Origin: SAR202 cluster bacterium
GTDB lineage: Bacteria; Chloroflexota; Dehalococcoidia; UBA3495
Length of the DNA stretch: 21,124 bases
Assembly (NCBI GenBank): GCA_009392775.1
Contig: VFFT01000045.1
Span: 1-21,124 of the forward strand
Direction: 5' to 3'
In this document: positions 1-21,124 of the stretch, one piece after another
Layout of the letters: the number at the start of each line of letters is the position of its first letter
Position numbering within the stretch: the stretch's first letter is position 1
The notes under the pieces: generated by a model
What the model was told of the DNA's origin: nothing
What the model saw: only the letters and a program-made list of their open reading frames with translations
Database searches by the model: none
Translations under genes and position numbers: made by a program

Positions 1-442
1 TGGTTCACTTACCGCTTCGGGTACTCTGAAAAGGAATGGTTCACTCACTCCGGTGGTGCTATCGGGAGATATGGTTCACTTTGTCTTCATAATACTTTTA
101 GATACTTTGGTTCACTTCCCATATACGTTACTTTTCATTCCGGTGGTTCACTTGGTGCTCGTGTTACTTTCAAATCTGATGGTTCACTTTCCTCCTTAGG
201 TACTATCTGTTATGCAGGTTCACTTAATTCCGACGTTACTTTTCTTCTCTGTTGGTTCACTTATCAATTTTGTTGCTATTGGACATGTTGGTTCACTGTC
301 TCAATATGTTGCTTTCTGACTGGGTGATTCACTTTTGCGCCATGTTACTTTTCTTTCAACTGGTTCACTCTTTTTTTTTGGGTGCTTTCAAGGGCCGTGG
401 GTTCACTTCATACGCATGTTACTTTCTATTCATATGGTTCAT
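1..442. repeat. TIGR-like array: tandem 36-bp dual-box, dual-spacer units
   Basis: Box 1 (consensus TGGTTCACT) starts at 1, 37, 72, 108, 144, 180, 216, 253, 289, 325, 361, 399 and 435, so units are 35-38 bp and mostly 36. Each unit has a second box (GTTACT, GGTACT, GTTGCT or GGTGCT) about 19 bases in. Between boxes lies variable spacer A (9-11 nt), and after box 2 spacer B (11-13 nt). Spacer pairs A/B in order: TACCGCTTCG/CTGAAAAGGAA; CACTCCGGT/ATCGGGAGATA; TTGTCTTCAT/TTTAGATACTT; TCCCATATAC/TTTCATTCCGG; TGGTGCTCGT/TTCAAATCTGA; TTCCTCCTTA/ATCTGTTATGC; TAATTCCGAC/TTTCTTCTCTGT; TATCAATTTT/ATTGGACATGT; GTCTCAATAT/TTCTGACTGGG; TTTGCGCCAT/TTTCTTTCAAC; CTTTTTTTTTG/TTTCAAGGGCCG; TCATACGCAT/TTCTATTCATA. 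The unit at 435 is degenerate (box 1 TGGTTCATT, no box 2). The array runs off the left edge. Known TIGR arrays yield 36-nt guides with two spacers. Orientation is not proven: the minus strand reads AGTGAACCA and AGTAAC, and contains the UGA expected of a C-box-like kink turn, and the nearest promoter (809-839) also reads that way. Confidence 0.85.
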
Positions 443-670
443 TTACCATATATATCCATCTAAGTCGAAAGGACTAACTGCTTCTTGTTCTACAACGAAA
501 CCGTCCTGTCTACTCCATGTTGCCCGCCATTCGCATCTTCTACATTCATAGTGACTTCCGTAATCGACTACCCGATCATTAGAATCGTAATTCTCAAAAG
601 GATCTCTATCTAGATAATCCTCATGGCAGCCTGTCGGACATGTAATTGTTCTTCTATCAGTTGATGACAT
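443..670 (-). CDS. Small zinc-ribbon-like protein beside the array
   Basis: This encodes 75 residues starting at ATG 670. That start is chosen over the upstream ATG at 700 because AAAGGAG lies just before it. The product has a CPTGC motif near the N-terminus and a CRRC motif about 35 residues later, a four-cysteine pattern suggesting a small zinc ribbon; the rest is acidic and unrecognised. The stop codon touches the last degenerate array unit, and two further units (724-795) lie just upstream, so the gene sits inside the array. It is the first gene after the promoter at 809-839, so one transcript could carry it and then the array on the minus strand. Function is unknown; a link to the array is suggested only by position. 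Confidence 0.62.
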   Translation of the reverse strand: MSSTDRRTITCPTGCHEDYLDRDPFENYDSNDRVVDYGSHYECRRCEWRATWSRQDGFVVEQEAVSPFDLDGYIW

Positions 671-723
671 ATTTTTCTCCTTTATATACATATACGTCAT
701 TCAACTCACTTCTGTTACAAAAT

Positions 724-849: not shown

Positions 850-921
850 GGGGTCACTCGTGCAGTGGGGTACTCTCGAACATCGGGGTTCGCTTCGTTA
901 TGTTGCTGCTATCTGCTTAAC
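850..921. repeat. Further TIGR-like units upstream of the array promoter
   Basis: Unit 850-885 fits the 36-bp design: GGGGTCACT, spacer CGTGCAGTGG, box GGTACT, spacer CTCGAACATCG. The next, 886-921, is degenerate: GGGTTCGCT followed by GTTGCT only 7 bases later. A weak box TGGCTCAAT starts at 922, again 36 bp on. The second unit overlaps the 3' end of the gene at 898-1161. The first starts 54 bp (one and a half units) from the aborted unit at 796. Confidence 0.62.
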
Positions 922-1161
922 TGGCTCAATCTCAGGATTTCTTTCAACTGCTATAGCGTTCTTTTTCGACCATCCCCCAGACATTAAGTTAGCTCTTCCT
1001 AGTTGTTTATCGTGCGTACCACATACGTGATACCAATTTTTATCCTTATATAGTTCAAATCCTTCTTCATATTCAGAAATACTTAATGCGTAACGAGCGT
1101 CACGATGGCAGTTCTTTACTGAATCTATTGAACGTATTTCGCATTTTTTTAATTTTGGCAT
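898..1161 (-). CDS. Small Cys/His hypothetical protein
   Basis: This encodes 87 residues from ATG 1161, with AAGAG as a weak ribosome site. It has Cys7, a CH pair at 18-19 and a later C-x2-H (HVCGTH) near residue 47, a spacing that could bind one zinc ion. No family is recognised. It is the last gene of the long minus-strand block that starts near 6067. Its final codons (QIAAT) lie in a degenerate array unit (886-921), so repeat DNA has become its C-terminus or the gene ends inside old array. Confidence 0.55.
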   Translation of the reverse strand: MPKLKKCEIRSIDSVKNCHRDARYALSISEYEEGFELYKDKNWYHVCGTHDKQLGRANLMSGGWSKKNAIAVERNPEIEPVKQIAAT

Positions 1162-1931: not shown

Positions 1932-3977
1932 TTACCTGTCCACCTTATAGGTTTTTCTTTTAATTGGCTTTCCTTCCGGTCCTTTTAGGTGAGCATCTAT
2001 CCATTTCAATGCATGTGATTTAGGATCATTTACAGATCCTCTAGATGGATAGTATTGGTTTCGAAAGTGTCCTGATTGCCACCACTGGAAATCGTGATGA
2101 ATAGGTCCACTGTCCTCATCATTCTTACTCTTAGCCTTTCTTTGTGGGTGTCGTAGCGTGATTACACTAGATTCGTATTTATTATCGTCCCACGCCCCTT
2201 TATAGCTGCCATTATCCTCTCTATCTAGTTGTTTTCGCAAAGAACGCGGCAGTCCTTGAGTCTCTAAATGTATTAAAGGAGTATTTAGGAAATTCAACAT
2301 TGCTATTACTACATGTATATATTCCGGTAATACGAAATCGTCAGGATATCTACTACCATGTCTAATCACATCTCGTACTATTTGAGCATCATCTGCATTA
2401 ACTAGATCATGAAAAATCTCAATTATAGGTTCGCCTTTTGTTGATACTACTTCACGAATGTATATCCAGTTTCTTTCTCCTAAAGTTTTATCAGGTGTTT
2501 CTTCTAAACTAAGAGAATATGAATCTTCAAATGAAAAGAACATACCTTCGGGATGTTGTAATAAAGGTAAAGCGATTGTGTGAGGCGGCAGCGGCATTTG
2601 CCTAGCTGTTTCGAATATTTCGGTTGACCACAGATATACTGCTGCACTTTGGTGCAGAGATAGTGCCGTTGATAGCATGTATGCTCTTGGAGCATCAGCA
2701 ATACTCACATCATCTTCTGTTGCTGTTTTAGATGCTGAGACAACATCTTCGGATACGGCGAACATGAAGTAAGCTAATAGTTTTTCTCCTTGTGCTTGCC
2801 ATGCTGCTCTGTTTTTAACTCCAAGTGACGGGTTTGATTGTAATAGCTCCCTAGCGCCATCTACGCTCCCAGACGACGCTGAGAGAACAGGGCTGGTGTT
2901 GTGCTTTAGATATCTCTGGAACAGAGGATCTCGCATTACATCCTCTCTCATACCGTTAGAAAGTTTATCTAATAACTCCTCAGGTATTTTTCTCATATCG
3001 GTTGTTCCATCACCATTGTCGGTGACTTCTAATATTTCTGCAGCTACCCTTTGTCGTTCTCGTAATATTTCTTTTTGGGCAGGACCGACATTTATTTGTC
3101 CGATTTGTTGAGGAGTCCACCTGTTTCTAGCTTCTTCAGTAGTTAGTCGGGTTTCTTCCATATCTTCTCGTTGCATCTCGAGTACTAACTTAGCGTGCTT
3201 CTCACAATAAAAGTATGGGCCACTTCTTTCTCCGGTACGACCATCTCTTGTGTGCATACCGCCGTGCCAGTGACCACGTATTCCATCTAATAGTTCGGTT
3301 GAGCCGTCTTCTAATATTTCCGCTACTCCTATAACGTTTCCTTCTTCATCTATGGCATTAGTGTAGGACTCTGTAATACAGCGGTTATAAACAGCCAACT
3401 TTTCACATACTTTGTCAGGATTACTTATAGGTCTGTAATCACATGGGTTTGTGCCAGTAGCTTCGGCTGGTTGTGAGGCAATACCAGTTCTATCGAAAAT
3501 TAAATCAAATTCACTTGCTATGAATTCGCCAGTAAATCTATATAGTGGTGTAGTGCCTCTGGCACTCCCAGAATATTTTTCAGCTATTATTTCTTTCTTT
3601 TCTTCTGTGTCTTGAAGTTTTATTAACTCTCTTACCGCTATTTTATTTTTTTCAGCACGAGTAGTAGAGCCAGCTTTTTTTAATGCTGTTGCGAAGTTTT
3701 TATTAAATTCTTCACCTTCGTTGTAGCCACCAATTCCAAGCCATGCTTTGTTAAATCTAGGATCAGACCCTAGCCATGCATTTGTTGTCGTATTTATTGA
3801 GGTAGACGCTCTTGCGGCGGAAACAACTTGGTTATCGCACATCTCACAACATCGTCCTGCGGCAATAGGTTCTGCATTAAAACCGTTACTGTTAGGATCG
3901 TTCTGCGTAGGCAATATAGGTAGATTGCATATTACACAGGTAGAGTGTGCTTGAGGATAATGATTTAGTCGATTCAT
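1932..3977 (-). CDS. Large zinc-ribbon protein with AcrVA2-like C-terminal motif
   Basis: This encodes 681 residues, the largest minus-strand product. Residues 14-47 form a CVIC ... GRCCEMC zinc ribbon of a type common in small phage proteins (a run ending in AEPIAAGRCCEMCDNQVV). A middle region of about 500 residues is unrecognised and includes HWHGGMH and a Cys/His patch (YFYCEKH). Residues 636 to about 670 carry GHFRNQYYPSRG followed by WIDAHLKGPEG. From memory this resembles the C-terminal signature of AcrVA2-like proteins of mobile elements (HWRNQ... W-I-x-P...GP). AcrVA2 itself blocks Cas12a production, but the motif also occurs in proteins of unknown role, so anti-CRISPR activity is only a possibility. 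Stop and start codons touch those of both neighbours (TAAATG). Confidence 0.72.
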   Translation of the reverse strand: MNRLNHYPQAHSTCVICNLPILPTQNDPNSNGFNAEPIAAGRCCEMCDNQVVSAARASTSINTTTNAWLGSDPRFNKAWLGIGGYNEGEEFNKNFATALKKAGSTTRAEKNKIAVRELIKLQDTEEKKEIIAEKYSGSARGTTPLYRFTGEFIASEFDLIFDRTGIASQPAEATGTNPCDYRPISNPDKVCEKLAVYNRCITESYTNAIDEEGNVIGVAEILEDGSTELLDGIRGHWHGGMHTRDGRTGERSGPYFYCEKHAKLVLEMQREDMEETRLTTEEARNRWTPQQIGQINVGPAQKEILRERQRVAAEILEVTDNGDGTTDMRKIPEELLDKLSNGMREDVMRDPLFQRYLKHNTSPVLSASSGSVDGARELLQSNPSLGVKNRAAWQAQGEKLLAYFMFAVSEDVVSASKTATEDDVSIADAPRAYMLSTALSLHQSAAVYLWSTEIFETARQMPLPPHTIALPLLQHPEGMFFSFEDSYSLSLEETPDKTLGERNWIYIREVVSTKGEPIIEIFHDLVNADDAQIVRDVIRHGSRYPDDFVLPEYIHVVIAMLNFLNTPLIHLETQGLPRSLRKQLDREDNGSYKGAWDDNKYESSVITLRHPQRKAKSKNDEDSGPIHHDFQWWQSGHFRNQYYPSRGSVNDPKSHALKWIDAHLKGPEGKPIKRKTYKVDR

Positions 3978-4250
3978 TTAGTTTTTTCCTAATATATGAT
4001 TTTTTATATTTTCTGGGGCGATTTCAGTGTTAATTAATTCCACTACGATGTAATTTTGATCTGATTCATCATCGCTGAGTGGGTTATACATAGTCCAAAT
4101 AACATTATTTACTAAACAGTTGATGTTAAATGATGGAATTTCTTCATCTGAGATGATTATTCTTGTACCAATAGAAGGAACAGTGTCGGATTTATGTGTG
4201 AATTTCCTAACATTGTTCTCACTATATTTAAGATGGTACTCAATATTCAT
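3978..4250 (-). CDS. Hypothetical 90-residue protein
   Basis: This starts at ATG 4250 and ends in TAA directly before the ATG of the 681-residue gene. Its hydrophobic pattern (GTRIIISDEEI, INCLVNNVIWTMY, YIVVELINTEI) suggests a small beta-rich domain, with no transmembrane segment or metal-binding motif. Family and function are not recognised. Tight packing with both neighbours supports it as a real operon member. Confidence 0.65.
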   Translation of the reverse strand: MNIEYHLKYSENNVRKFTHKSDTVPSIGTRIIISDEEIPSFNINCLVNNVIWTMYNPLSDDESDQNYIVVELINTEIAPENIKNHILGKN

Positions 4251-4251
4251 G

Positions 4252-4431
4252 CTATTTAAACTTGTGATATGCCTTTTTCCATTCTTTTTCTTCTGATTTA
4301 ACCCATTTAAATTGATTTAATCTATTTATACAGGTGTCGCAGTAATCAATTCCCGCATTATCTAGGTGTGATCTACTGCTATGTCCGCAATTAATGCATT
4401 TATTGTTGATTATTTTCTTCTTCTTTTTCAT
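4252..4431 (-). CDS. 59-residue zinc-ribbon protein
   Basis: This gene starts at ATG 4431 and ends at TAG 4254-4252, two bases before the next start. The product opens with a lysine run (MKKKKK), then CINC (12-15) and CDTC (31-34), a CxxC-x15-CxxC ribbon, and ends in a Lys/Trp-rich helix (FKWVKSEEKEWKKAYHKFK). It overlaps the end of the upstream 107-residue gene by 32 bp and the ribosome site is weak, so translation may depend on the upstream gene. The two CxxC pairs and basic ends suggest nucleic-acid binding, which is inference. Confidence 0.68.
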   Translation of the reverse strand: MKKKKKIINNKCINCGHSSRSHLDNAGIDYCDTCINRLNQFKWVKSEEKEWKKAYHKFK

Positions 4432-4723
4432 TTCTAATTTGGTTTTTGAACTGTTCCTTCAATTTTCGCGCACTATACACCATGTTTAAGATGATATTAC
4501 AGATGCATTTAGCGTTTTTTATTTGATTATAATCAACACATGCATCGAAATGACCATGAGTCTCCACAGAAAAGTCAGTAAAGACATCTGGATCGGCATC
4601 TATTTGGTTAGAAATGTTTTTTAATTCTTCAAAAATACTTTTAGATGTTGTTTCTTTTGTATAAGCGGTGTTAGTTATCTGCTCATTCCAATTATTTATT
4701 ATGTTGTCTAAATCTTCGCTCAC
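4400..4723 (-). CDS. Hypothetical 107-residue helical protein
   Basis: This starts at GTG 4723, with AAAGGAAAA as ribosome site, and overlaps the stop of the upstream gene by one base (TAGTG). The product is mostly helical by composition: an acidic, Asn-rich N-terminal half, a short Cys-containing core (FDACVDYNQIKNAKCICN) and a charged C-terminus (LKEQFKNQIRNEKEEENNQQ). No family is recognised. Position places it in the same operon as the coiled-coil protein upstream. Confidence 0.62.
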   Translation of the reverse strand: MSEDLDNIINNWNEQITNTAYTKETTSKSIFEELKNISNQIDADPDVFTDFSVETHGHFDACVDYNQIKNAKCICNIILNMVYSARKLKEQFKNQIRNEKEEENNQQ

Positions 4724-5844
4724 TAATTTTCCTTTCTATTGCGGCTTACTAGGTTAGTAAGTTTATTAACTACTCCGCTATTTTCATTATTTGTTGATTG
4801 CATTTTGGATAATTCTTGTTCTAATTGTTCAATTCGTAGATCTTGTCGAAGAATAGATTTTCTTTGCACTTCAATAGTGTTTCTATATGCTTCATGATCA
4901 TCTGCAAATAATTTATTAAAGTTTTCTTCGACTTCTTCTTTAATATTTACTTGACTGGATTCAAGATCATTAATTTGTTTTTGCAGTTTGTTGATCTCGT
5001 CATTTCGATCTTCTAATATTTTTATTAAAGAATTCATCAGATCGTCGCTAGTTACATTATTTGTTTCTTGCGGTGCTGCTACAGGAGGAGACGCATATTC
5101 TCTCTCCAGTGGGGCAGCTAAGTCTTCTGTTTCTGTGATCATAGGCTCTTCCTTTTGTTTAGATGCTTTAGCATCTCCAGTTTCTGGATCAATTGTTCTT
5201 AGAAATTTGCCAGTAACATCAGTTCCATACAAGGCATTGACTAATTTGGCACTTGTTTCTGCTGTAAATTTCAATGCTCTGTAGTACAAATACGTACTAG
5301 CGGCGTATTTTCGTAATTCGAGCTTATTCTTATTTTTGGTAACTCCGACCTCATCAGGCATAAAATGGAGATTAGTGATCTCTTCTTTATTAGAGGCAAT
5401 TAATGGACTTACATTTTTCATCCAACCGCTGGCAGTAGCTGTGGTCATTCCTACTTTAAGTTGTGCTCCTACTATTCCTGCAACCATTGCCCATGTATGC
5501 GACGGGGTTGTATATCGAATAGCTTGGATAACTGATATCAAAAGTTCCTTTTGGTCATCAGAGTAGGTATTGTATCTACCTTGTTTTTTACCACGCATTT
5601 CTTCAAGTGTGGCTTCAGCCCATTTAAAATCTACAGGTATGGCCCCTTCCTCTAATACGGTTGAGTGGACTTGACGGTATTTCTTATCTGCAACTTCCAC
5701 AATTGGGCGTTCAAATCCTGATCTTCGTTCTGTCTCTTCTTTTTCAAAGTTTTCTTTGATTGAGTTTCTACGATCTCTAGCACGATCTAAGGCGCTATAT
5801 ACAGGAAAGTTTTGAGCTTGTTCGCGGGAAATTCTATATGTCAT
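4723..5844 (-). CDS. HTH-like and coiled-coil hypothetical protein
   Basis: This encodes 373 residues from ATG 5844, with AGGAG eight bases upstream. Residues 95-150 (YSDDQKELL ... TTATASGWMKNV) look like a helix-turn-helix, with TTATASGWMK in the place of a recognition helix. Residues 205-265 are a Pro/Glu-rich linker and residues 266-345 are heptad-rich (KILEDRNDEINKLQKQINDL ... LRIEQLEQELSKM), a long coiled coil likely to drive self-association. A DNA-binding, oligomeric architectural or regulatory role is inferred; no named family is recognised. The first 60 residues are strongly charged. Confidence 0.68.
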   Translation of the reverse strand: MTYRISREQAQNFPVYSALDRARDRRNSIKENFEKEETERRSGFERPIVEVADKKYRQVHSTVLEEGAIPVDFKWAEATLEEMRGKKQGRYNTYSDDQKELLISVIQAIRYTTPSHTWAMVAGIVGAQLKVGMTTATASGWMKNVSPLIASNKEEITNLHFMPDEVGVTKNKNKLELRKYAASTYLYYRALKFTAETSAKLVNALYGTDVTGKFLRTIDPETGDAKASKQKEEPMITETEDLAAPLEREYASPPVAAPQETNNVTSDDLMNSLIKILEDRNDEINKLQKQINDLESSQVNIKEEVEENFNKLFADDHEAYRNTIEVQRKSILRQDLRIEQLEQELSKMQSTNNENSGVVNKLTNLVSRNRKEN

Positions 5845-5863
5845 TTTCTTCTCCTATTCCGGT

Positions 5864-6067
5864 CTAGGAATTTTCATCCAGTATTCTGTGTATACGAGCA
5901 ATTGGATTGTCGTACTTACTTGGATGTCCTATATGCCAACCCCTATGTCTTTTACATTGATAAGAGGAGACATCGTCATCCTCTTTAAATAAATCCCTGT
6001 TATGCAGATATGCAGCTTTATCAGCCATCTGCTTATTAGGATAAATTTTTTTATTTGCACAATTCAT
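5864..6067 (-). CDS. Small C/H-rich phage protein
   Basis: This encodes 67 residues from ATG 6067, with AGGAGAG as ribosome site. The sequence has the layout of a common small phage/actinobacterial family: an N-terminal Lys-rich segment (KKIYPNKQMADKAAYLHNRD) and a C-terminal C-x-R-H-x-G-W-H-I-G-H motif (CKRHRGWHIGH), as in YxCxxCxGWHxT proteins. Here one zinc ligand seems replaced by His. It is the first gene after the promoter at 6145-6175, heading the block that runs to 898. Confidence 0.65.
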   Translation of the reverse strand: MNCANKKIYPNKQMADKAAYLHNRDLFKEDDDVSSYQCKRHRGWHIGHPSKYDNPIARIHRILDENS

Positions 6068-6144
6068 ATCTCTCTCCTATATTCAGCCCGGAGAAGGATG
6101 GTGCACTTAACTTATATTACAGCCCTAATATGATTTCTACTAAG

Positions 6145-6175
6145 AGTCTATCAGATTTAACTGGACGTTTGTCAA
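6145..6175 (-). promoter_or_regulatory. Minus-strand promoter, no palindromic operator
   Basis: TTGACA (6175-6170), a 19-bp spacer and TAGACT (6150-6145). The -35 context TTGACAAACGT is identical to the promoters at 839, 10858, 13090 and 14760, but the 15-bp palindrome is not kept (TAGACTCTTAGTA), so this copy may escape a shared repressor. It sits just after the stop of the gene at 6172-6537 and would drive 5864-6067 and the genes downstream. Confidence 0.65.
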
Positions 6176-6537
6176 CTTAGCGCCCTATTAAAATTACGTT
6201 TCTTTCTTTTTTTAGTCTCTAAAGCGTCTTTTACGCTATTACTTTTAGGGCGTTTCCCATCAGATCTTCTCCATGCATCCATCCCGTCCATTGAGTTGGG
6301 AAATGTTTTTGTTTCTCCACAGGGACACTTACCTTCACAAACAGGTCCGTTAGGTGAGGGAAGTACCCAATAATGGCTGTGTGTTAATTCGCCGTTCTTA
6401 TATTTATCTAGCCATTTACGAATTGTTCCTTCTGGAACATTTATTTTTCTGCTTATTGCTGATCTGCCTAATCCTGAAATGAAATAGCCTATTGCTTTAT
6501 TTATTACTGTATCGGGATATTTATATCTATTAGTCAT
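6172..6537 (-). CDS. HTH protein with C-terminal zinc motif
   Basis: This encodes 121 residues. Residues 10-46 (VINKAIGYFISGLGRSAISRKINVPEGTIRKWLDKY) form a clear transposase/Cro-like helix-turn-helix. Residues 55-82 give HYWVLPSPNGPVCEGKCPCG followed by KTFPNS, a His/Cys motif repeatedly seen in phage proteins (HxW...GPxxxGxCxxCG...F.NS). The C-terminal tail is very basic (KKRKKRNFNR). A DNA-binding regulator is likely; target unknown. The stop codon overlaps the -35 element of the next promoter (6170-6175). Ribosome site AAAGAGAG. Confidence 0.72.
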   Translation of the reverse strand: MTNRYKYPDTVINKAIGYFISGLGRSAISRKINVPEGTIRKWLDKYKNGELTHSHYWVLPSPNGPVCEGKCPCGETKTFPNSMDGMDAWRRSDGKRPKSNSVKDALETKKRKKRNFNRALS

Positions 6538-6581
6538 TAAGCTCTCTTTTACTATATGTACGCGAAATTAAAAAGTGTCCG

Positions 6582-6971
6582 CTATTTGGTATTAGAGTTT
6601 TTAACTCCGTTCCAGCATGTTGGGCAATACACAGGTCTGTTAGGTTCTGGAGTGAAAGGAACCTTAGATACCCGATTACAGTTATTACAGATTATTTGAT
6701 TCGTATCTTTTCGAACATGGTTGTCTACATATTGTTTCTCTTCAGTGTTTCGTATGTGACTTCCCACATGCTGCGCCACACCGCCTTCTTTTCTTAGTTG
6801 TCGGCATGGTTTACACCGCTTTGGTGTTTCAAGTTCATGTTGTACATAAAAATCTATTTCTCCAGATGTTAGGAAAAAGTTATCATCACATTCAATACAT
6901 TCTCGTTTTCTAGTGTCTTCTTCTGATTCGTGTTCTTTCACAGAGGAAAGAAATGACGGAAACGAAGGCAT
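6582..6971 (-). CDS. Tandem zinc-ribbon protein
   Basis: This encodes 129 residues from ATG 6971, with AGGAG upstream. The first ribbon is CIEC (25-28) ... FFLTSGEIDFY ... RCKPCR (53-57), matching the widespread CxxC...FxF(T)xGEQxFY...RCxxCR zinc-binding domain. The second is CNNC (95-98) ... VPFTPEPNRPVYCPTCW (116-119), matching the CxxC...VPF.P...RPVYCxxC domain often found with it in phages and candidate-phyla bacteria. The exact role of this family is unknown; nucleic-acid binding is probable. The first 20 residues are a charged extension. Confidence 0.78.
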   Translation of the reverse strand: MPSFPSFLSSVKEHESEEDTRKRECIECDDNFFLTSGEIDFYVQHELETPKRCKPCRQLRKEGGVAQHVGSHIRNTEEKQYVDNHVRKDTNQIICNNCNRVSKVPFTPEPNRPVYCPTCWNGVKNSNTK

Positions 6972-6986
6972 TTAAAAATCTCCTAA

Positions 6987-7301
6987 TTAATTATCTGATT
7001 CGAGTCTCTTAATGAATACTGGGGTATGTTCTCCAAGCCATCCACCTATCACGTTATAGTCAAAATGTTCGACTGCCATTGTGTAGGGATCATCATCTTC
7101 ATCTAATTCTTCTTGAGACATTTGTTTAGCAAATATATCTATAACCATGTCGTAGTCATATGCGACATAGCATTCACCTCCAAACCTATGGGCAATTCCA
7201 ATGATTGCAGGTTCAAATTCTTCTTTATCGTCACCGCCAAGAAGTAATAGAGGTTGTTCTGTTTCGTCTGCGTATTCGTCTATTTGTTCAATTTTATTCA
7301 T
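6987..7301 (-). CDS. Acidic hypothetical phage protein
   Basis: This encodes 104 very acidic residues starting at ATG 7301, overlapping the stop of the MazG-like gene by four bases (ATGA). The motifs AIIGIAHRFGGECYVAYDYDMVIDIF and HFDYNVIGGWLGEHTPVFI suggest a compact alpha/beta fold of a type seen in other phage small proteins, but no function is assigned. No metal motif or membrane segment is visible. Translational coupling to the MazG-like gene is likely. Confidence 0.7.
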   Translation of the reverse strand: MNKIEQIDEYADETEQPLLLLGGDDKEEFEPAIIGIAHRFGGECYVAYDYDMVIDIFAKQMSQEELDEDDDPYTMAVEHFDYNVIGGWLGEHTPVFIKRLESDN

Positions 7302-8023
7302 ATATTTTTATTTCCGTGCCTATAAGGGCGGGTTTTATTAAATTTCATCTTTAAATCTATCGCTTTATCAAGTTCTAGATCTAATTTTCCGCATAAATCA
7401 GCAATTCTTATCACCGTATCGGCTAATTCAAATATAAAACCTTCTGGTTTACCATCAGATTTGCGTCTATACATCTCTTTTTCGCCATGATCTCGGTACG
7501 CTTCTAATGCTTCACTCACTTCTGAGTGTATTAATGCAAGCTTTTCTCCAATATTAGGCTCTTTATCCCACCAACCTTTATCTTTAGCGGTTTCGTGGGA
7601 TTCTTTAATGATATGTTTTATTGTTAATGATGAGTCTTCTGTAATAGGAGCCGCTTTTCTTAACTCGTAGAGTTGTTCAACAGGTGTAGTTGATTCAATT
7701 ACGTTTGATTTCCAAACAGTAACACCATCATGGTGAGATTTAGCAGACTTAGTTTGTCTTTTAGTATTGCTAGCTAATTTTATTTTAACTAAATGTCTGA
7801 GAACCCCACCAATTGCTGATTGTTCGTGTGTATCTAAAGTGGGTTCTTGTTCTTTCAGCTTGTTCCATATGTCATCAACAGTGAAATAAGCTTTTTCTTT
7901 AGCTACGCACTCACCTGCATATTTAGCAGCATCCATCCAATCAAGGTTGGCATTATAAGTTGCTGAGGTTATTGCGGCTTCTTTATTTTCTTCCCAATCA
8001 TCAAATATGTTTTGTTGTGACAT
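7298..8023 (-). CDS. MazG-like pyrophosphohydrolase with N-terminal winged-helix-like domain
   Basis: The C-terminal half (residues 130-241) is a MazG-type all-helical nucleoside triphosphate pyrophosphohydrolase: EKLALIHSEVSEALEAYRDH supplies Glu168/Glu171 and FELADTVIRIADLC supplies Glu199/Asp202, the metal-binding ExxE...ExxD pattern; it ends KFNKTRPYRHGNK as in this family. Phage MazG proteins hydrolyse nucleotides such as (d)NTPs or alarmones. Residues 40-105 (AYFTVDDIWNKLKEQEPTLD ... GVLRHLVKIKLA) resemble a winged helix; this fusion is less usual. The start at ATG 8023 is chosen because it overlaps the upstream stop (TAATG); an ATG ten codons earlier is possible. Confidence 0.82.
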   Translation of the reverse strand: MSQQNIFDDWEENKEAAITSATYNANLDWMDAAKYAGECVAKEKAYFTVDDIWNKLKEQEPTLDTHEQSAIGGVLRHLVKIKLASNTKRQTKSAKSHHDGVTVWKSNVIESTTPVEQLYELRKAAPITEDSSLTIKHIIKESHETAKDKGWWDKEPNIGEKLALIHSEVSEALEAYRDHGEKEMYRRKSDGKPEGFIFELADTVIRIADLCGKLDLELDKAIDLKMKFNKTRPYRHGNKNI

Positions 8024-8517
8024 TAGTATGCCCACACACCTTCTTCCATCCAAAGTCTTCTATCACAAGCAATTGGTCTTTTAGAGACTATTAATTCATA
8101 TGCCTCGTCGATGGTCATGCTTTGATACTTAACTAGGTATCCAACTACTGCTAATGGCGCTCTTTCCATTCCCATAGCACAGTGAACTACTATTTTAGTA
8201 TCGTCTTCTGTATTTAGTTTTAAATCTACTAGATCAGCAAATGCGTTCATCTGCTTGGTTAGTTGTTTCGGTCTTCCTTCGAAAGGAATATCAATATCAT
8301 CATATGGGTTACCCATTAACTCCTGTGCTACGTTAACTACATAACATCCTGTTAGTTGGGCTTCTTTTGCGCCTTCCCAGTCAGTTATAGCGATTCGGTC
8401 TGTAATCCATGACAATTCGTCAGGATCAAACCTATCTGCAGGTCTTTCTAGTATTTGTGATAATGTTCCTGCTAATCTTTCCTTCGATGATTCTCCGTTA
8501 TATTTATTTGGGTCCAA
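8023..8517 (-). CDS. Dual-specificity/tyrosine phosphatase-like protein
   Basis: This encodes 164 residues. The signature VVHCAMGMERAP holds the catalytic Cys113 and Arg119 (CX5R), and the following helix and RPIACDRRLW segment match dual-specificity phosphatases. A candidate general acid lies among the Asp residues of NPYDDIDIPFEG (72-76). It would remove phosphate from Tyr, Ser or Thr residues or from small phosphorylated molecules; phage examples are thought to alter host signalling. The start is TTG 8517 with AAGGAG ten bases upstream. It sits between SNase and MazG genes in the operon headed by the Tas-like gene and is coupled to MazG by TAATG. Confidence 0.8.
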   Translation of the reverse strand: MDPNKYNGESSKERLAGTLSQILERPADRFDPDELSWITDRIAITDWEGAKEAQLTGCYVVNVAQELMGNPYDDIDIPFEGRPKQLTKQMNAFADLVDLKLNTEDDTKIVVHCAMGMERAPLAVVGYLVKYQSMTIDEAYELIVSKRPIACDRRLWMEEGVWAY

Positions 8518-8545: not shown

Positions 8546-9094
8546 TTAAATTCCTACGTCTGCGTCGTGTATGACGTATCCGTTAGGTGTCCATCTAGTC
8601 CAAGTACCATCGCACTTACGACCTCTGGTCATCTTTTTTCCTTTACAGTTGTGGGAGCATCCTGTATCTACAGTCCACTCACCCATCTCATCTTTAGAAC
8701 CACCCATATACCATCGGGCGTGTCCTTCATCTATAAGAGCTTGGTTAACATTAATACCTTCACCAGTATTAGCATTAATCCAAATCTCACCTAAGATTCT
8801 TCCAAACTTCCCTTTACCGTCTTTAGCGGTTTTGAGGATTACGTCTTTCCTTCCACGTTTGCCGGGAAGAGTATTAGCTGATGCTATTAGCTCTTTGATT
8901 CTAGCTTTAGCAGCTTGTCCTAAAACTTTTTCTTTTTTATTTGATGTTCGTGACTCTGGGGTATCTAACCCAAGTAATCTAATACGCTCATCGTATTTAA
9001 TCTTAAAACCGATATCGATTAGGGCATCAACTGTATCGCCGTCAACAACATTGGTTATTCTTACTTGAAATTCGTAACTAGGTCCCATTGCCAT
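8546..9094 (-). CDS. Staphylococcal-nuclease-like (SNase) endonuclease
   Basis: This encodes 182 residues from ATG 9094, with AAAGGAG upstream. SNase landmarks: VVDGDTVDALIDIGF with metal-binding Asp20; RIRLLGLDTPE with Arg39, Asp44 and Glu47; GQAAK; and GKFGRILGEIW with Arg99. These correspond to the Asp21/Arg35/Asp40/Glu43/Arg87 active-site set of staphylococcal nuclease, so it should be a calcium-dependent DNA/RNA nuclease. No signal peptide is visible, so it probably acts in the cytoplasm. After residue 140 there is a Cys-containing extension (DTGCSHNC ... RKCDGTW) that may bind zinc. It lies three genes downstream of the nuclease-free Tas-like gene, in the same operon. Confidence 0.88.
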   Translation of the reverse strand: MAMGPSYEFQVRITNVVDGDTVDALIDIGFKIKYDERIRLLGLDTPESRTSNKKEKVLGQAAKARIKELIASANTLPGKRGRKDVILKTAKDGKGKFGRILGEIWINANTGEGINVNQALIDEGHARWYMGGSKDEMGEWTVDTGCSHNCKGKKMTRGRKCDGTWTRWTPNGYVIHDADVGI

Positions 9095-10862: not shown

Positions 10863-11363
10863 CTATACTCCTGTTCCCGGTTCCCTGTTTTCGATTTTCC
10901 CTATTTGTATTCGAAATGCGTCTACCGCCTCTTGTACTGAATCGCTTTGTCTTAAATTTGCGACGTACTCTAAATGCGATATACGGTCATATAGGGAAGA
11001 CAGTCTTTTTGAATATCCCCTTTTATTGTGAACAGTCTCTATTGATAGAATTTTGGCATCTTCCAATTCTTCTATTTTTGTTTCAGTCTCTTCGAATAAT
11101 TTCCTAATGAAAGTATCGTATGCACTTTCTAAATCATTTATTCGATCCTCAGGAACCTCAGCTTTAACTACTAATAAGTCTTCGCCAAGGGTTCGCAGCT
11201 TTTCATATGTTTCGGGGGTATATGGGGCGCAGTAGACGCTCTGTGAGTGAATAGCTGCCCCCATTGCCTTGAATTGTCGGTGAAGTCTTACACGTTTGGT
11301 AAACTCCTCACTTCCCATATCAAAGAATATAAATACCCATTTGTTTAGATGTTTATTTTTCAT
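10863..11363 (-). CDS. Cas2/PaaX/ChrB-fold-like protein next to the Tas-like gene
   Basis: This encodes 166 residues. Residues 8-75 read as beta-alpha-beta-beta-alpha-beta: KWVFIFFDM (strand 1 ending in Asp), SEEFTKRVRLHRQFKAMGA (helix), AIHSQSVYCAPY (strand 2), TPETYEKLRTLGED (helix), LLVVKAEV (strand). The order Asp, Arg-rich helix, GA, QSVY resembles the ferredoxin-like domain shared by Cas2, VapD, PaaX C-terminal and ChrB N-terminal proteins. Residues 78-150 are helical. Cas2 is the structural core of CRISPR spacer integration; ChrB and PaaX are regulators. Which this is cannot be told by eye. It ends five bases before the Tas promoter and belongs to the operon that begins at 13030. Confidence 0.62.
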   Translation of the reverse strand: MKNKHLNKWVFIFFDMGSEEFTKRVRLHRQFKAMGAAIHSQSVYCAPYTPETYEKLRTLGEDLLVVKAEVPEDRINDLESAYDTFIRKLFEETETKIEELEDAKILSIETVHNKRGYSKRLSSLYDRISHLEYVANLRQSDSVQEAVDAFRIQIGKIENREPGTGV

Positions 11364-14721: not shown

Positions 14722-14760
14722 TATACTCTAAGTATAGCAGCCCGCTATGACGTTTGTCAA
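14722..14760 (-). promoter_or_regulatory. Promoter and operator of the AAA+ ATPase gene
   Basis: TTGACA (14760-14755), here with an 18-bp spacer, and TATACT (14736-14731). The palindrome is TATACTTAGAGTATA (14722-14736), one symmetric pair weaker than the three perfect copies. It drives 13102-14685. Confidence 0.75.
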
Positions 14761-16196: not shown

Positions 16197-16814
16197 ATGC
16201 CGTCTATAAGAATGAGCGACGTATTAAATAATCCAGATGTTCATATCGCTGAAGTACAGTCTGAATCTCAGTGGAAAGTTTTTATTAGCAAGATACAAGA
16301 AGGGTTAAGCGTAGTAGTACATGATGATTACTACTGGCATAGATATAAAGGAATTAAGAATCCTCTTAGATCTTGTTTTATATATGAGCGGGTAAGGCGT
16401 AAGTTTGAGCCTTGGGAAGGTTCGCAACTTTATGCTTTTCATCATAAGTCTGGGGATTTATGGATTACTTTGAGGTTGCCCGATCATTTTTGTTTAGATT
16501 GTGACAAAAAGATAAGACCTAATTGGGAGCGGTGTAGGAGTTGTAGAAATAGAAGATGGTATAGGTTGCAGCCTTTTTATCCAGAACGAACAGAGGTTAA
16601 TTATTCTGCTACCGACCAGACCTTAGAGTTTGCATATAGGTTGTTACGTAATTTGAGGTCGAATGAGAAATTAGTTGTGGAGCATGCGGATTGCAGTACA
16701 CCGAGAAGATGTTTACATATGAGATTTCATTTAATGAAACGTATAGGTTCTGCTCTTCCCTACTCTTTAAAAATTGTAAATAATGTTAGCTATATAGTGG
16801 AGAAGAATGAGTAA
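16197..16814 (+). CDS. Hypothetical zinc-ribbon protein
   Basis: This encodes 205 residues, starting three bases after the upstream stop. One zinc ribbon, CLDC (99-102) ... CRSC (113-116), lies in a basic, Trp/Arg-rich segment (RNRRWYRLQPFYPER). A short beta-rich N-terminal region (residues 1-95) and a helical C-terminal part (FAYRLLRNLRSNEK; CLHMRFHLMKRIG) flank it. It resembles other phage regulators in style but no family is recognised. Its pairing with the HTH/zinc gene upstream suggests a shared role. Confidence 0.65.
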   Translation: MPSIRMSDVLNNPDVHIAEVQSESQWKVFISKIQEGLSVVVHDDYYWHRYKGIKNPLRSCFIYERVRRKFEPWEGSQLYAFHHKSGDLWITLRLPDHFCLDCDKKIRPNWERCRSCRNRRWYRLQPFYPERTEVNYSATDQTLEFAYRLLRNLRSNEKLVVEHADCSTPRRCLHMRFHLMKRIGSALPYSLKIVNNVSYIVEKNE

Positions 16815-16995
16815 GCGGGGTTTTTATTCCACAATAGGGGTGTTTGCTTTATTAGGTGCGACTGCTGCAGTTGGTATCTCTATTGTGATGTCTAGAAGAA
16901 ATCAAGCGAAGAGAGATCGTTTGGTTTATAAGAAGAAGGATTTAAGAAGACGCTGGTTTCATTATTTATATGGTTATTACGGGAAAAAATATTAA
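16807..16995 (+). CDS. Small single-pass membrane protein
   Basis: This encodes 62 residues, overlapping the previous gene by 8 bp. Residues 8-28 (STIGVFALLGATAAVGISIVM) form one hydrophobic helix, followed by a strongly basic tail (SRRNQAKRDRL ... KKDLRRRW). The charge bias predicts the tail is cytoplasmic, with the N-terminus outside. The layout could fit a small lysis-associated or host-interaction protein, but nothing is specific. Ends directly before the ATG of the next gene (TAAATG). Confidence 0.62.
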   Translation: MSKRGFYSTIGVFALLGATAAVGISIVMSRRNQAKRDRLVYKKKDLRRRWFHYLYGYYGKKY

Positions 16996-17151
16996 ATGGT
17001 TCAATTAATAAGCGGCGATTCTGGTTGTGTAGTTTGTGGTATACCTTCCGATGATTTAACTCCTTGCGAGTCTTGCGAATCTCCGGTTTGTGATGACTGT
17101 TCAGAGGAGAGATGGCCCGATATTTTTTGTTCTGTTGAGTGTATGAGTTAA
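16996..17151 (+). CDS. 51-residue eight-cysteine zinc protein
   Basis: This gene starts at ATG 16996, immediately after the upstream TAA, and ends at TAA 17149-17151. The product has eight cysteines: CVVC (11-14), CESC (24-27), CDDC (32-35) and CSVEC (45-49). Four ordered pairs in 40 residues fit a two-zinc cross-brace such as a PHD, FYVE or treble-clef fold. Most of the chain is used by the motif, so it is probably a small binding module rather than an enzyme. It is the last gene before the next promoter. Confidence 0.68.
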   Translation: MVQLISGDSGCVVCGIPSDDLTPCESCESPVCDDCSEERWPDIFCSVECMS

Positions 17152-17174
17152 CTCAAACTCCCTTAGAAATCTGT

Positions 17175-17202
17175 TTTACATCAAACATATTTCGGGTATA
17201 CT
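17175..17202 (+). promoter_or_regulatory. Plus-strand promoter of the structural block
   Basis: TTTACA (17175-17180), a 16-bp spacer and TATACT (17197-17202), about 65 bp before the ATG at 17269. It is a clear sigma70-like match in the only sizeable gap (17152-17268) between the regulator genes and the structural-type genes. The gap also has a small palindrome (GAGTTAACTC at 17145-17154) at the preceding stop; it has no following T-run, so I do not call a terminator. Confidence 0.6.
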
Positions 17203-17268
17203 CTCCGTTAAAGGTTAGGGGCTAAAGTGGGGATTATTTATCTCTATTTATAGAAAAGGTAAAGGGTT

Positions 17269-17496
17269 ATGGTAAATAAACAATCGGATTGGGAAGACGT
17301 TTATGACAGACGGGTTTCCAATATGGTACGGGAATGCATGGTTATTTTAGAGGGGTTGGTTCCTGATGATAAACAAAGGTCACCCCTTAGACAATTAATG
17401 AGAAGAACTATATATAACGCTACTGATGGCTTAAAGAGCGATTTAGTAAATATGGGATTACAGCGTAAGCAAGAAGATTTTAAATTCCCAACATAA
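17269..17496 (+). CDS. Hypothetical 75-residue protein
   Basis: This starts at ATG 17269, with AAAGG upstream, and is the first gene after the promoter at 17175-17202. The product is helical and charged (DWEDVYDRRVSNMVRECMVILEGLVPDDKQRSPLRQLMRRTIYNATDGL), with no metal motif or membrane segment. No family recognised. Small helical proteins at the front of a head block can be scaffold accessory or terminase small subunit-like, but this one lacks a visible HTH. Confidence 0.6.
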   Translation: MVNKQSDWEDVYDRRVSNMVRECMVILEGLVPDDKQRSPLRQLMRRTIYNATDGLKSDLVNMGLQRKQEDFKFPT

Positions 17497-17532
17497 TATT
17501 GTAATATATGACAATTAAGTTAGGAGGTAGCC

Positions 17533-17760
17533 ATGCCGGGATTTAATAGACCGGACTTCCCTGAAGTTCCTGACAGTAAAATAAATATTGGAGACTACCG
17601 AGACGGCGCACCTCTTCGCGTTACTGATTTGTATGAGACAGGTTCTTTGAGCCAGACTCCAGAATTACGTGATCAAGTGCTGACTGTCGCAGATCCAGTA
17701 GTTACTATGGAACAGAAAATAGCGGAAGCTATTGGTGATTTTTTAAATAGAGATAAATAA
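17533..17760 (+). CDS. Hypothetical 75-residue protein
   Basis: This starts at ATG 17533 after a very strong TAGGAGGT ribosome site, implying high expression. The N-terminal half is Pro/Asp-rich and extended (PGFNRPDFPEVPDSKINIGDYRDGAPLRV), the C-terminal half probably helical (TMEQKIAEAIGDFLNRDK). This pattern fits a small structural or linker protein of the virion, which is inference from position. The stop codon abuts the next ATG (TAAATG). Confidence 0.65.
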   Translation: MPGFNRPDFPEVPDSKINIGDYRDGAPLRVTDLYETGSLSQTPELRDQVLTVADPVVTMEQKIAEAIGDFLNRDK

Positions 17761-17976
17761 ATGCCCGCACAGTCGGAACAGCAACGACGGGCTGCGGGTG
17801 CTGCGTTAGCGGCAAAACGAGGAGGTTCTTCTAAGGGACTTAGGAGTGCCTCATTATCTATGTATGAGAGTATGACAGAAGATGAGTTGGAGGATTTTGC
17901 TAGTAAGGAGGCCGATCCTCAGATAATTAATATATTAAAGGCAATAGATCGTTACGTTGCACAAGGTAAAGGTTAG
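17761..17976 (+). CDS. DUF3008-like small protein
   Basis: This encodes 71 residues. The opening MPAQSEQQRRAAGAALAAKRG and the later SMTEDELEDFASKE follow the layout of small phage and bacterial proteins of the form MPAKSKAQQRxxGxxLAxKRG...SMSEKELEDFA, which I associate with DUF3008. Their role is unknown; in phages they often lie near head and tail genes, as here. It starts directly after the previous stop and is followed two bases later by the next ATG. Confidence 0.72.
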   Translation: MPAQSEQQRRAAGAALAAKRGGSSKGLRSASLSMYESMTEDELEDFASKEADPQIINILKAIDRYVAQGKG

Positions 17977-17978
17977 GA

Positions 17979-18281
17979 ATGGTTTTACAAAAGGCGAGGA
18001 AGATAAGAAAAATGGATGAGATTAGAAAAAGCAGACAGGAGAATATAGATTACATCTTAGAGAATCGACAAGAGCTTGTTGAGAACTTCACTAACAAGTG
18101 GCTGTCGGTGAATAATGGAATGGTTGAGTTAGCTGATGATGAACTCTTCACTCTTTATAAGCTTGTATCAGGCAGACAAGAGGGAGATGAGTCTAGGGTT
18201 TTCTACCTTTCTAATTTATTTGATCCTGCACTTATATTGATTAGACCCACTGAGGTGGAGTATGACTCTTCAAAAACATAA
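17979..18281 (+). CDS. Hypothetical 100-residue protein
   Basis: This starts at ATG 17979, two bases after the previous stop, with TTAGGA as ribosome site; a second Met ten codons later (MDEIRKSRQ) is an alternative start. The N-terminus is basic and helical, followed by helical segments (YILENRQELVENFTNKW; ELFTLYKLVSGRQEGD) and an extended C-terminus. Its last 20 bases overlap the 665-residue gene. No family is recognised. Confidence 0.62.
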   Translation: MVLQKARKIRKMDEIRKSRQENIDYILENRQELVENFTNKWLSVNNGMVELADDELFTLYKLVSGRQEGDESRVFYLSNLFDPALILIRPTEVEYDSSKT

Positions 18282-20259
18282 AGTAGATAACATGACTGAA
18301 AGTGACGCCCACATGGTTATGTCGTGGCTCACTGATGCTATTGAAAGTTTAGAAGAGGAACAAGAAGATATACAAAAAGCTGACGTTTCAGTTCCAGCAA
18401 ATGAAGAATCTGCTGCTGTAGCTCAAAGTACTATAGGTGATGTTGCAAATGGTGGATTAACTCCTCCTGCTGCAGAAACTCCTAATTTAGGTACTACAGC
18501 TTCTTCGCAATCTCAACTTCCTATACAAGCCTCGGCTGATGGGCAGGATGCAGAGAAGTCTAAATCTAAGACAAATCTTCCTCCTGAGATGGGACAACGT
18601 GATTCAGGGGACACGGTTGCTATGCCATTTTTGAGAAGAAAAGATATAAAAGACCCCAAATCTGATGATTTTAAGAAGGCTGATTCTGAAATTGCACGAC
18701 TAAATGCTTGGTCTGTGGTAGATAAAGCGGCTGGTTTGCTATTAGAAGAGACTGTTTCAGATAGTTTTATACGTAAATCATTCAATATTTCTGAAGATTT
18801 ACCCATTGAAGAGGTTTCTCAAGGCACTTTATTGCATAGATTGCTTTCTGATTCTAATAGACCGTCTTCGGATTGGTGGGAATCTTGTGTCGAATTTGCA
18901 AAAAGTATTGAAGGTGTGACAGAACCCGGAATTTTTGCTGCGGTTCTTTATTACCATCCCGAACAGTTTGAGATAGATGACTTCTTGGAAAAAGAAGCCA
19001 GTGCCGCTACTTCTGAAGGTGGGGCTAACATTACTATTCTTGGCTATGACACTAAGAATTTTGATATATGTCCCGGTGCGGTTACCGCATTTGAGTCTAT
19101 ATTGGAATGTTCTTGCACAGAAGCAGAACCTCAAATCATTAAAGCTGCTAAAGAGACGGATCGTTTCTTAGGGTTAGAAAAGAAATATATAGATAAAGGA
19201 AAAGCGGATAGTAATGAGATAGAAGAGATGGTTCGATCTATTGCTACTACTCATTATTTAGTAGGTCAGCTTTCTAATCAGTTAGAGCGGGACTTTACTG
19301 ACGAGTTCACTTTTACCTCCATGCATATAGGTACAGTACTTCCAATTCTTGAGAAAGGAATGGAGTTAGATACTTTAGAGAAAGACGGTAGTCTTCCTTT
19401 TGGGGCAACCAAAGTATCACCTAATCAGATTCTTACTTATGGAGATGGTCCTGCGGGAACAGGAGAATCTACTTCTACTATTGGTAAATCTCACCACGAG
19501 AAATCAGAAGATGGTGAGGAAGAGGTAGATGAGATTATCTATACTGAGAACGATGCTGCTGAAGATGAAGATATGGAGAAAGCAGATATTCCTCCTGCCC
19601 CAGTTCCAACAGGGACACCTACTGATGATCTAACTTCCGACCAAAAGAAACAACAAAAATTAACAGATGATGCACACGCAGCAGAAGATGCTCGTTTAAA
19701 AGCTAATGCTGAAGCTAGAGATGCAGCTTTAACTCAAGGTTCTGGTACATCTGATACAGATGCTACCGCTGCTGCTGCTTTACTTTTATCTACTATAGAG
19801 TCTGAGTTAGAGAAAGCTATTGATGATGGGAAAGGGGCTAAAGAAACTTTAGCTAAAGTTATTAATTACTCTGAGAAGCTTATAAGTATGCTTGGAGATA
19901 ATGATGACTTAGATCATTGGATCAATGACAAGATATCCCGTGTAGGTACTTATATAAGTGATGTAGCACATCATTTAGAAGATAAAGAAAGTTTAGAGAT
20001 TGTTGAAAATAGAAAAGATTTAGAATCTCCGTCCGAGACGGGTCCTATGGACCGTGCGGAATCTCGACCTAATGTAATTATGAGAGAAGAGATTGTAGAT
20101 GAAGATTCAACTGAATATTCTAGAATGCATGACACGAGTGGTGCGGGTCCCGCTGGGGACTCTGGTGAACCTGATAATGTTTCTGGGGACGGCATGGAAG
20201 GTTTGGGTATGTCTGCTGATGATCACGATCATCATCATGAAGATATTGGAAAAACTTGA
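18262..20259 (+). CDS. Acidic virion/prohead-type structural protein
   Basis: This encodes 665 residues, strongly acidic overall, with Ala/Thr/Pro-rich linkers (55-110, 440-505). The start at ATG 18262 overlaps the previous gene and follows GAGGTGGAG; ATG 18292 is an alternative. Residues 515-574 (ELEKAIDDGKGAKETLAKVI ... SEKLISMLGDNDDLDHWI, then DKISRVGTYISDVAHHLE) match the K-L-x-x-M-x-x-x-x-x-L-x-x-W-x-x-x-K-I-x-x-A-x-x-Y-I-x-x-V-x-H-x-L-E domain that I recall from head-core or structural proteins of T4-like and other myovirus-type phages. The C-terminus ends in a His/Asp cluster (DDHDHHHEDIGKT), a possible metal-binding tail. Acidity and low complexity fit a scaffold or internal head protein; a prohead core role is the best guess. 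Confidence 0.68.
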   Translation: MTLQKHKVDNMTESDAHMVMSWLTDAIESLEEEQEDIQKADVSVPANEESAAVAQSTIGDVANGGLTPPAAETPNLGTTASSQSQLPIQASADGQDAEKSKSKTNLPPEMGQRDSGDTVAMPFLRRKDIKDPKSDDFKKADSEIARLNAWSVVDKAAGLLLEETVSDSFIRKSFNISEDLPIEEVSQGTLLHRLLSDSNRPSSDWWESCVEFAKSIEGVTEPGIFAAVLYYHPEQFEIDDFLEKEASAATSEGGANITILGYDTKNFDICPGAVTAFESILECSCTEAEPQIIKAAKETDRFLGLEKKYIDKGKADSNEIEEMVRSIATTHYLVGQLSNQLERDFTDEFTFTSMHIGTVLPILEKGMELDTLEKDGSLPFGATKVSPNQILTYGDGPAGTGESTSTIGKSHHEKSEDGEEEVDEIIYTENDAAEDEDMEKADIPPAPVPTGTPTDDLTSDQKKQQKLTDDAHAAEDARLKANAEARDAALTQGSGTSDTDATAAAALLLSTIESELEKAIDDGKGAKETLAKVINYSEKLISMLGDNDDLDHWINDKISRVGTYISDVAHHLEDKESLEIVENRKDLESPSETGPMDRAESRPNVIMREEIVDEDSTEYSRMHDTSGAGPAGDSGEPDNVSGDGMEGLGMSADDHDHHHEDIGKT

Positions 20260-20289
20260 GCACATTAATTAAGGACTGCAGTCTGTAGT

Positions 20290-21124
20290 ATGTTAGAGAT
20301 CGAACCAACAGAATTACTAGATGAGGTTGATATCCTCATAAAGAATGCATCAGATAGTTCTGAGAATATTATAAGTATGTATCGGGACGGCGATGTCACT
20401 ATCGAGCTTGCAGATATTAACGGTATATTTTTTGTTCGTCGAAGCGGAGCAAATTTATATACTGGAGATGATCCAGCAAAAGCTGCACATGTTTATTACA
20501 AAAGTATTGTTGATACTTATGAAGATAAACGTAAAGGTGTAGACCCAAGTTTTTCTACCTTAAGACAGATACTTACTTCTCGAAACGATCATGTTAAAGA
20601 TGCTTTAGGTCAGTTAGGTCATAGTCTTCTTTCTAGAAGTTTAGAGGATTTTGAGTTTTATCGAGAACAGGATGTCTATTCTTTATTAGTAAAGAGGATG
20701 GATGAGATTGAGTCTGAGGACTTTTTAAAATCTCTTGAGGATGATGGGTATACAGTAAAGGATATGGGCGCTGCTACAGCAATACCGGGTCCTACTGATA
20801 TAGCTGATCCATACCAGTCTGTTGCTGAGATAAATCAAGTAAGACGGGCTGGCACTGTTCAAAGCCCTAAAGGTATTAGATCTACAAGACCCGGACATAA
20901 GGTTAGTGAGTCTCAGTTAGCTGCTTTAGAAGAAGCTGGAATTTCTTGGGAAGAATATTTGAGAGAGCATCCTAATATGCTTCTTCCTGAAGAAACTGAA
21001 GATGATCGAATGAAAGAACGCGAACCCGGCGATGAGCCTTATTTACATAAATTTGAGAACACTATCGCTATGACCCCTGATGCTGAGACTCCGAATTTAG
21101 GTGAGATGCAGCATGAGAGGCGGG
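20290..21124 (+). CDS. Structural-block protein, 3' end outside the window
   Basis: The frame is open from ATG 20290 to the window edge (at least 278 residues). The first 160 residues form an ordered alpha/beta region (VDILIKNASDSSENIISMYRDGDVTIELADINGIFFVRRSG), the rest is acidic and helical, with an extended Gly/Pro segment (AIPGPTDIADPYQ). Residues near 270 contain TPDAETPNLG, nearly the same as TPPAAETPNLG in the preceding 665-residue protein, so the two may share a binding motif. AAGGA is too far upstream to be a good ribosome site; a perfect 10-bp palindrome, GACTGCAGTC (20274-20283), lies between. Function unknown; structural by context. Confidence 0.6.
   Translation, partial: MLEIEPTELLDEVDILIKNASDSSENIISMYRDGDVTIELADINGIFFVRRSGANLYTGDDPAKAAHVYYKSIVDTYEDKRKGVDPSFSTLRQILTSRNDHVKDALGQLGHSLLSRSLEDFEFYREQDVYSLLVKRMDEIESEDFLKSLEDDGYTVKDMGAATAIPGPTDIADPYQSVAEINQVRRAGTVQSPKGIRSTRPGHKVSESQLAALEEAGISWEEYLREHPNMLLPEETEDDRMKEREPGDEPYLHKFENTIAMTPDAETPNLGEMQHERR

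Follow-up and report, generated by a model that had tools for sequence, protein, structure and literature searches.

A probable minus-strand TIGR-type array distant from a TasA-like gene in a contig of likely phage origin

The TIGR systems, described in 2025 (Faure et al., 2025; PMC12045711), provide the closest known counterpart to the locus analysed here. According to the sections of that paper drawn on throughout this text, a dual-repeat TIGR array consists of two alternating repeats of 8–12 nt and spacers of 9 nt with a period of 36 nt, and is accompanied by a Nop-domain protein, Tas. Cutting of the guide RNAs (tigRNAs) within the edge repeats requires Tas and probably a host RNase, the products are loaded on a Tas dimer via C and D boxes, and spacers A and B pair with opposite DNA strands with no protospacer-adjacent motif (PAM), while for TasA binding without cutting was suggested. 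The published arrays, taken from 5 kb on each side of tas, most often contain 5 to 15 units, start with a truncated edge repeat and finish with a truncated edge repeat and a terminator; the same sections leave open how the arrays arise and grow and what they target in nature. In this study, a stretch of 21,124 nucleotides from a SAR202 cluster bacterium assembly (contig VFFT01000045.1, referred to as the window) was analysed, of which positions 1–443 very probably represent a minus-strand TIGR-type dual-repeat array, with predicted 36-nt tigRNAs that would guide a TasA-like protein to DNA. What is shown here comprises the array with its strand, the Tas-like gene and the fold predicted for it, the occurrence of the same layout in relatives, and, in related arrays, the inheritance of spacers A and B of one unit together.

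The dual-repeat array and the Tas-like gene

The informative strand of the array is the minus strand, on which each unit runs from the edge repeat AGTGAACCA through spacer A and the loop repeat AAAGTAACA to spacer B; on the plus strand, the same repeats appear as TGGTTCACTT and GTTACTTT. An earlier note on this DNA had described an array of 36-bp dual-spacer units that runs beyond the left edge, and both observations are borne out. The 13 edge boxes start, in the minus reading, at 443, 407, 369, 333, 297, 261, 224, 188, 152, 116, 80, 45 and 9, the spacing from edge to edge is exactly 36 in 9 of 12 cases (35, 37 and 38 in the others), and the loop box lies midway within each unit. Twelve units are complete, and the 13th edge runs up to the window start, where the 3′ part of the array is cut off; the first 39 bases of the window have no match in IMG/VR. 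The variable segments of 9–11 and 11–13 bases given in the note proved to be variable, but their lengths did not hold, as they trace back to shorter boxes drawn on the opposite strand. Once the repeats are taken as 9 nt, the spacers measure 9 nt in 20 of 24 cases, 10 nt in three and 8 nt in one. No two of these spacers are alike, so the conserved segments that the note had named as a ground for refutation are absent.

Across the nine units with a length of exactly 36 nt, the information content is 1.5–2.0 bits in edge columns 2–10 and below 0.8 bits in most spacer columns. The in-register recurrence of 7-mers reaches 11 in the window as opposed to a maximum of 3 in 300 first-order Markov versions of it, and the maximum was again 3 when the control was repeated on bases 1–700 with 1000 Markov versions. 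Searches with Rfam (gathering scores) and ARAGORN returned no match anywhere in the window. As in CRISPR arrays, the repeats are combined with variable spacers; unlike in CRISPR arrays, there are two short alternating repeats with 9-nt spacers and no long identical repeat, in agreement with the non-CRISPR pattern claimed before. The single repeat type of about 25–36 nt with one spacer each, which defines CRISPR-Cas, was not found, and PADLOC, applied to six window proteins, gave only a weak Cas2 match. The features are listed in Table 1.

Table 1. Features of the array region and the tas region in the window.
Feature	Position	Strand	Description
Main TIGR array	1–443	minus	13 edge repeats, consensus AGTGAACCA; 12 loop repeats, consensus AAAGTAACA; 24 spacers
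Array piece, about one unit	724–786	minus	Profile R1 match 726–768, E 1.2e-6; chain of 4 sites
Degenerate array piece, about two units	850–930	minus	Profile R1 match 887–928, E 7.7e-4; chain of 5 sites, low score
Array piece, about one unit	1180–1241	minus	Profile R1 match 1197–1241, E 4.2e-5; chain of 4 sites
tasA-like gene, 349 aa	9699–10748	minus	Nop domain, no N-terminal nuclease
Cas2/PaaX-like gene	10863–11363	minus	PaaX_M, E 5.4e-4 (below the Pfam cut-off); PADLOC Cas2, E 1.1e-3

The Tas-like gene, which had been placed about 9.3 kb away, shares the strand of the array at a gap of 9259 bp (9.26 kb) with 17 open reading frames (ORFs) in between. Its product matches TasR and TasH both by sequence (TasR, 9mty, E 6.5e-14) and in its predicted fold. 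In the model, the fold match starts at residue 31–35, as opposed to residue 63–66 of TasH and residue 111 of TasR, and a Pfam scan of the protein found no nuclease family. It differs in this respect from TIGR-TasR (9mty) and TIGR-TasH (9w04, 21kl) by having no RuvC or HNH N-terminal domain, and shows the solo Nop domain of the TasA subtype. An insert at about residues 146–210 is a further difference from TasR and TasH; it has no counterpart in the shorter relatives P0060, P0099 and P0116 and is modelled as mostly helical with high confidence. In total, 1678 Tas homologs were found, while a tblastn search of INPHARED with the window Tas gave no match at an E value of 1e-5.

With its alternating edge and loop repeats, 9-nt spacers, 36-nt unit, nuclease-free Nop protein, likely phage setting and CA ends common to both repeats, the locus resembles TIGR-TasA as presented in the sections of PMC12045711 drawn on. 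The TIGR interpretation of the earlier note is thus supported by the anatomy, which fits the published definition, by the sequence and fold matches of the Tas-like protein, by the recurrence of such arrays close to tas in other loci, and by the detection of the window array with a profile made from other loci. The CA ending, found in most copies of both the edge and the loop repeat, and the scores of the window units with a profile from other tas loci point to C-/D-box-like motifs. We regard the array as being of the known TIGR type, with an unusual distance from tas and probably a large size. It deviates from the published TIGR-TasA systems, as far as the sections drawn on go, in its distance of 9.3 kb compared with the 5-kb search span, in the small broken array pieces between ORFs, and in that two relatives of its lineage hold 50–60 units compared with the usual 5–15.

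Recurrence, size and turnover of related arrays

To place the window in context, it was compared with 95 other tas loci, 15 of them from GTDB contigs and the others being the 80 best among 404 matches in IMG/VR; the loci used were recruited via tas or via the Cas2-like gene. Since several loci are near-identical copies, e.g., L015/L016 and L031/L032/L033/L042, the following counts are not independent. With a repeat model built per locus, dual-repeat chains occur no more than 1 kb from tas in 86 of the 96 loci (this total includes the window) and farther away in three (9259 bp in the window, 8497 bp in L006 and, measured to a small piece, 7750 bp in L007), while no chain was obtained in seven. 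The chains sit on the tas strand, and the same procedure applied to the 96 opposite strands and to 96 Markov versions gave no chain. A cruder search for words, blind to strand and run with no typed seeds, found in-register words in 82 of the 96 loci, in 80 of them within 1 kb of tas, compared with 0 of 196 resampled sequences. This search misses some of the 86 loci, yet it finds words beside tas in L038, L060 and L063, where the per-locus model found none; neither method detected an array in L001, L002, L092 and L094.

To avoid circularity, the profile R1 was built from sequence only and without the window, using 36 units from the seven loci L003, L005, L006, L009, L037, L052 and L059, of which L006 belongs to the lineage of the window. 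Its best 12 window matches (E values up to 0.24) are all on the minus strand at positions 37–1241; the two top matches have E values of 1.7e-8 and 1.9e-8, and the next match, outside the array region, has 1.2.

L007 sits in a 141-kb virus record (G001), and the record of L006 is G002. Searching the whole G001 record with R1 gave 59 matches, 50 of them within one array at 74378–76595, and the whole G002 record gave 62 matches at 3244–7865. According to their coordinates, tas is separated from the G001 array by about 10 kb and from the nearest block of G002 by about 8.5 kb, which suggests that this lineage is characterised by arrays that are large and remote from tas; the 12 units of the window are probably part of a larger array. 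The source DNA is likely a phage, as had been proposed, because its close relatives are IMG/VR virus records. A second small TIGR array, a chain of 8 sites, was observed in G001 at 38266–38414, about 48 kb from tas. Arrays can therefore lie outside 5 kb of tas and, in relatives, far exceed 5–15 units, so surveys of the published design can miss them.

For the study of array turnover, the 89 loci with arrays were reduced to 70 by dropping those with a score below 100 or without a clear edge/loop assignment, and 44 pairs of related but non-identical arrays, which share ancestry, were compared. Of 1015 aligned shared spacers, 1014 had the same role, A or B, in both arrays; in the link count of related arrays, the role changed in three shared spacers. 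Where an A spacer is shared, its B partner was retained in 186 of 195 links, as opposed to 153 of 283 for the A that follows a shared B (Fisher p 9e-26, not corrected for shared ancestry), and a few of the breaks within units are one-base shifts. The arrays L008/L010/L011 speak against this linkage, with 4 of 23 links broken within units and 2 of 25 across edges. G001 and G002 have one unit clearly in common, with both of its spacers: A is identical, and B agrees at 7 of 9 positions. Judged from these comparisons, the joint inheritance of A and B fits spacers that would act as a pair.

All 43 distinct clean indels start at an A spacer and 41 of them comprise whole units, the two of odd length being both from L043/L051. 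As a clean indel requires matching spacers on both flanks, this result is silent on the array ends. The gain or loss of whole units from edge to edge is exemplified by L043, L051, L056, L057, L061, L065 and L067 (among L008–L080), and these alignments provide natural evidence suggesting that related arrays gain and lose internal units as wholes, with the edge repeat as the boundary. Within the sections of PMC12045711 and PMC12385481 considered, neither unit-wise turnover nor arrays beyond 5 kb are described. Since pairs are kept while units come and go, the way in which arrays grow becomes open to direct tests. As a speculative extension, to which we assign a low probability, a mechanism acting at the edge repeat might add and remove whole 36-nt units inside the array, so that the A–B pair is preserved as one targeting word. 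In this lineage, the library might have expanded to several dozen units at a distance of about 9 kb from its TasA, to which it would have moved, and may use a lineage-specific Cas2/PaaX-like protein.

Between L056 and L061, and between L048 and L055, one or two bases are changed in some of the shared spacers, which resembles drift of the spacer within a retained unit.

Predicted function, target searches and alternative readings

By analogy with the described systems, the array transcript would be cut within the edge repeats by a host RNase together with Tas, giving 36-nt tigRNAs, and a Tas dimer would assemble with one tigRNA via the C and D boxes. The two spacers, A and B, would then pair with opposite strands of the DNA, with no PAM. 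Because the nuclease is missing, Tas would presumably bind and bend the DNA without cutting it, most likely so as to keep a competing mobile element, or the host, from being transcribed or replicated. All picked ORFs between 443 and 15049 are on the minus strand, so the array and tas are likely co-directional and possibly part of one long transcript. A sigma-70-like site on the minus strand at 14760–14731 (11 of 12 bases, TG before the second hexamer) lies near the head of this gene run as a pattern only; since promoter-like sites are fewer in the window (21) than in shuffles (mean 46), nothing was drawn from them.

Several results weigh against a guide array paired with this Tas, among them the target searches. 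At up to two mismatches, 700 of the 2998 spacer pairs gave 122 matches to all tas loci in the published geometry and 142 and 129 in wrong geometries; at up to one mismatch, all 2998 pairs gave 30 in the published and 28 in a wrong geometry. The 144 lineage pairs showed no excess over re-paired controls in the lineage genomes. Taken singly, the A spacers gave 311 exact 9-mer matches there, compared with 256–283 in five column shuffles, and single B spacers 313, compared with 314–386 in shuffles, which gives no consistent signal across A and B. In IMG/VR, the predicted target sequence of the unit common to G001 and G002 matched 9 loci in 6 sequence groups, and that of window unit 1, the one unit of 12 covered, matched 2 loci of the same phage sequence, exactly over 18 nt within a 395-aa gene; as a rough guess, both scans are at chance level. 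Spacer searches of the tas loci, the lineage genomes and IMG/VR thus yielded no target; the targets may be hosts or phages outside the searched set. The remaining points are the array–tas distance of 9.3 kb, the position of the 3′ part and any terminator beyond the window edge, several edges and loops that are off consensus, and the R1 search of the L001 and L002 records, which found no array though tas is present. The contigs of L001 and L002, the nearest relatives, stop inside the homolog of ORF 1932–3977, short of the array position.

Among the alternatives, a decaying TIGR relic, with an inherited anatomy whose processing or use was lost, survives best, although we consider it improbable. 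The deviating boxes AAAGTATTA, AAAGCACCC and AATGAACCA, owing to which part of the main array may indeed be decaying, the three broken pieces at 724–1241, and the distance from tas favour it, whereas the intact tas frame of 349 aa, the nine spacings of exactly 36 and the 50–60 units retained in lineage relatives argue against it. That the repeats are protein-binding sites of a phage, such as iterons or an operator array, and have no guide role would be in line with the empty target searches and the lack of RNA evidence; it is very improbable in view of two different alternating repeats with variable spacers, the A–B linkage in related arrays, and the location of such arrays within 1 kb of tas and on its strand in 86 of 96 loci. 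Just as hard to sustain is an IS110-type transposase next to an unrelated repeat, as suggested by the PHROG family label (transposase) and by PF02371, Transposase_20 (IS116/IS110/IS902), the sole Pfam family over its cut-off in the Tas-like protein, since the window carries an array of guides and not a single bridge RNA as in IS110 (as summarised in the sections of PMC12045711 used), and, unlike in the IS110 recombinases IS621 and ISCro4, where the fold match begins at residues 124 and 123, only about 30 residues precede it and the N-terminal DEDD catalytic domain is absent.

Neighbouring genes and smaller array pieces

Just upstream of tas lies the Cas2/PaaX-like gene, whose model has its best structural match in PaaX (8a39), followed by Cas2 (5zyf). 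The protein has a helical C-terminal part and is conserved in the phage lineage. Among the tas loci, matches were found only in L001, L002, L006 and L007, with none in the other 91 at an E value of 1e-5; the gene adjoins tas in the window and L002 only and lies apart from it in L001, L006 and L007. Two IMG/VR scans added only L117, of the same lineage and with tas, and L118, a fragment in which no tas was seen, and 28 homologs (genomic context not known) were found compared with 1678 for Tas. A role as TIGR adaptation gene was considered and is not supported, as the gene is rare among tas loci, often apart from tas, and PaaX-like in its fold. It is treated here as a gene of the lineage, its membership in the TIGR system not being supported.

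The window, L001, L002, L006, L007 and L117 have in common an endonuclease-like gene, the Cas2/PaaX-like gene, tas and several uncharacterised genes homologous to window positions 16197–21123; an AAA ATPase gene and a DUF3150 gene are common to the window, L001, L002 and L117. In L001, L006, L007 and L117, tas follows the endonuclease gene, while the gene order in the window and L002 looks inverted, which would have brought the Cas2/PaaX-like gene next to tas. The product of ORF 1932–3977, a 681-aa neighbour, has no match in IMG/VR.

The pieces at 724–786, 850–930 and 1180–1241 are more degenerate than the main array and lie between small ORFs or at ORF ends, the second overlapping the 3′ end of ORF 898–1161 (minus strand). 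The first edge of the main array, AATGAACCA, overlaps by one base the TAA stop codon (445–443) of ORF 443–700 (minus strand). Two further minus-strand genes were observed: a dual-specificity phosphatase-like gene at 8023–8517 (DSPc, E 8.6e-13) with homologs in L001, L002, L006 and L007, and a staphylococcal-nuclease-like gene at 8546–9094 (SNase, E 2.8e-11), which shows 90% and 89% identity in L001 and L002, respectively, above that of its neighbours.
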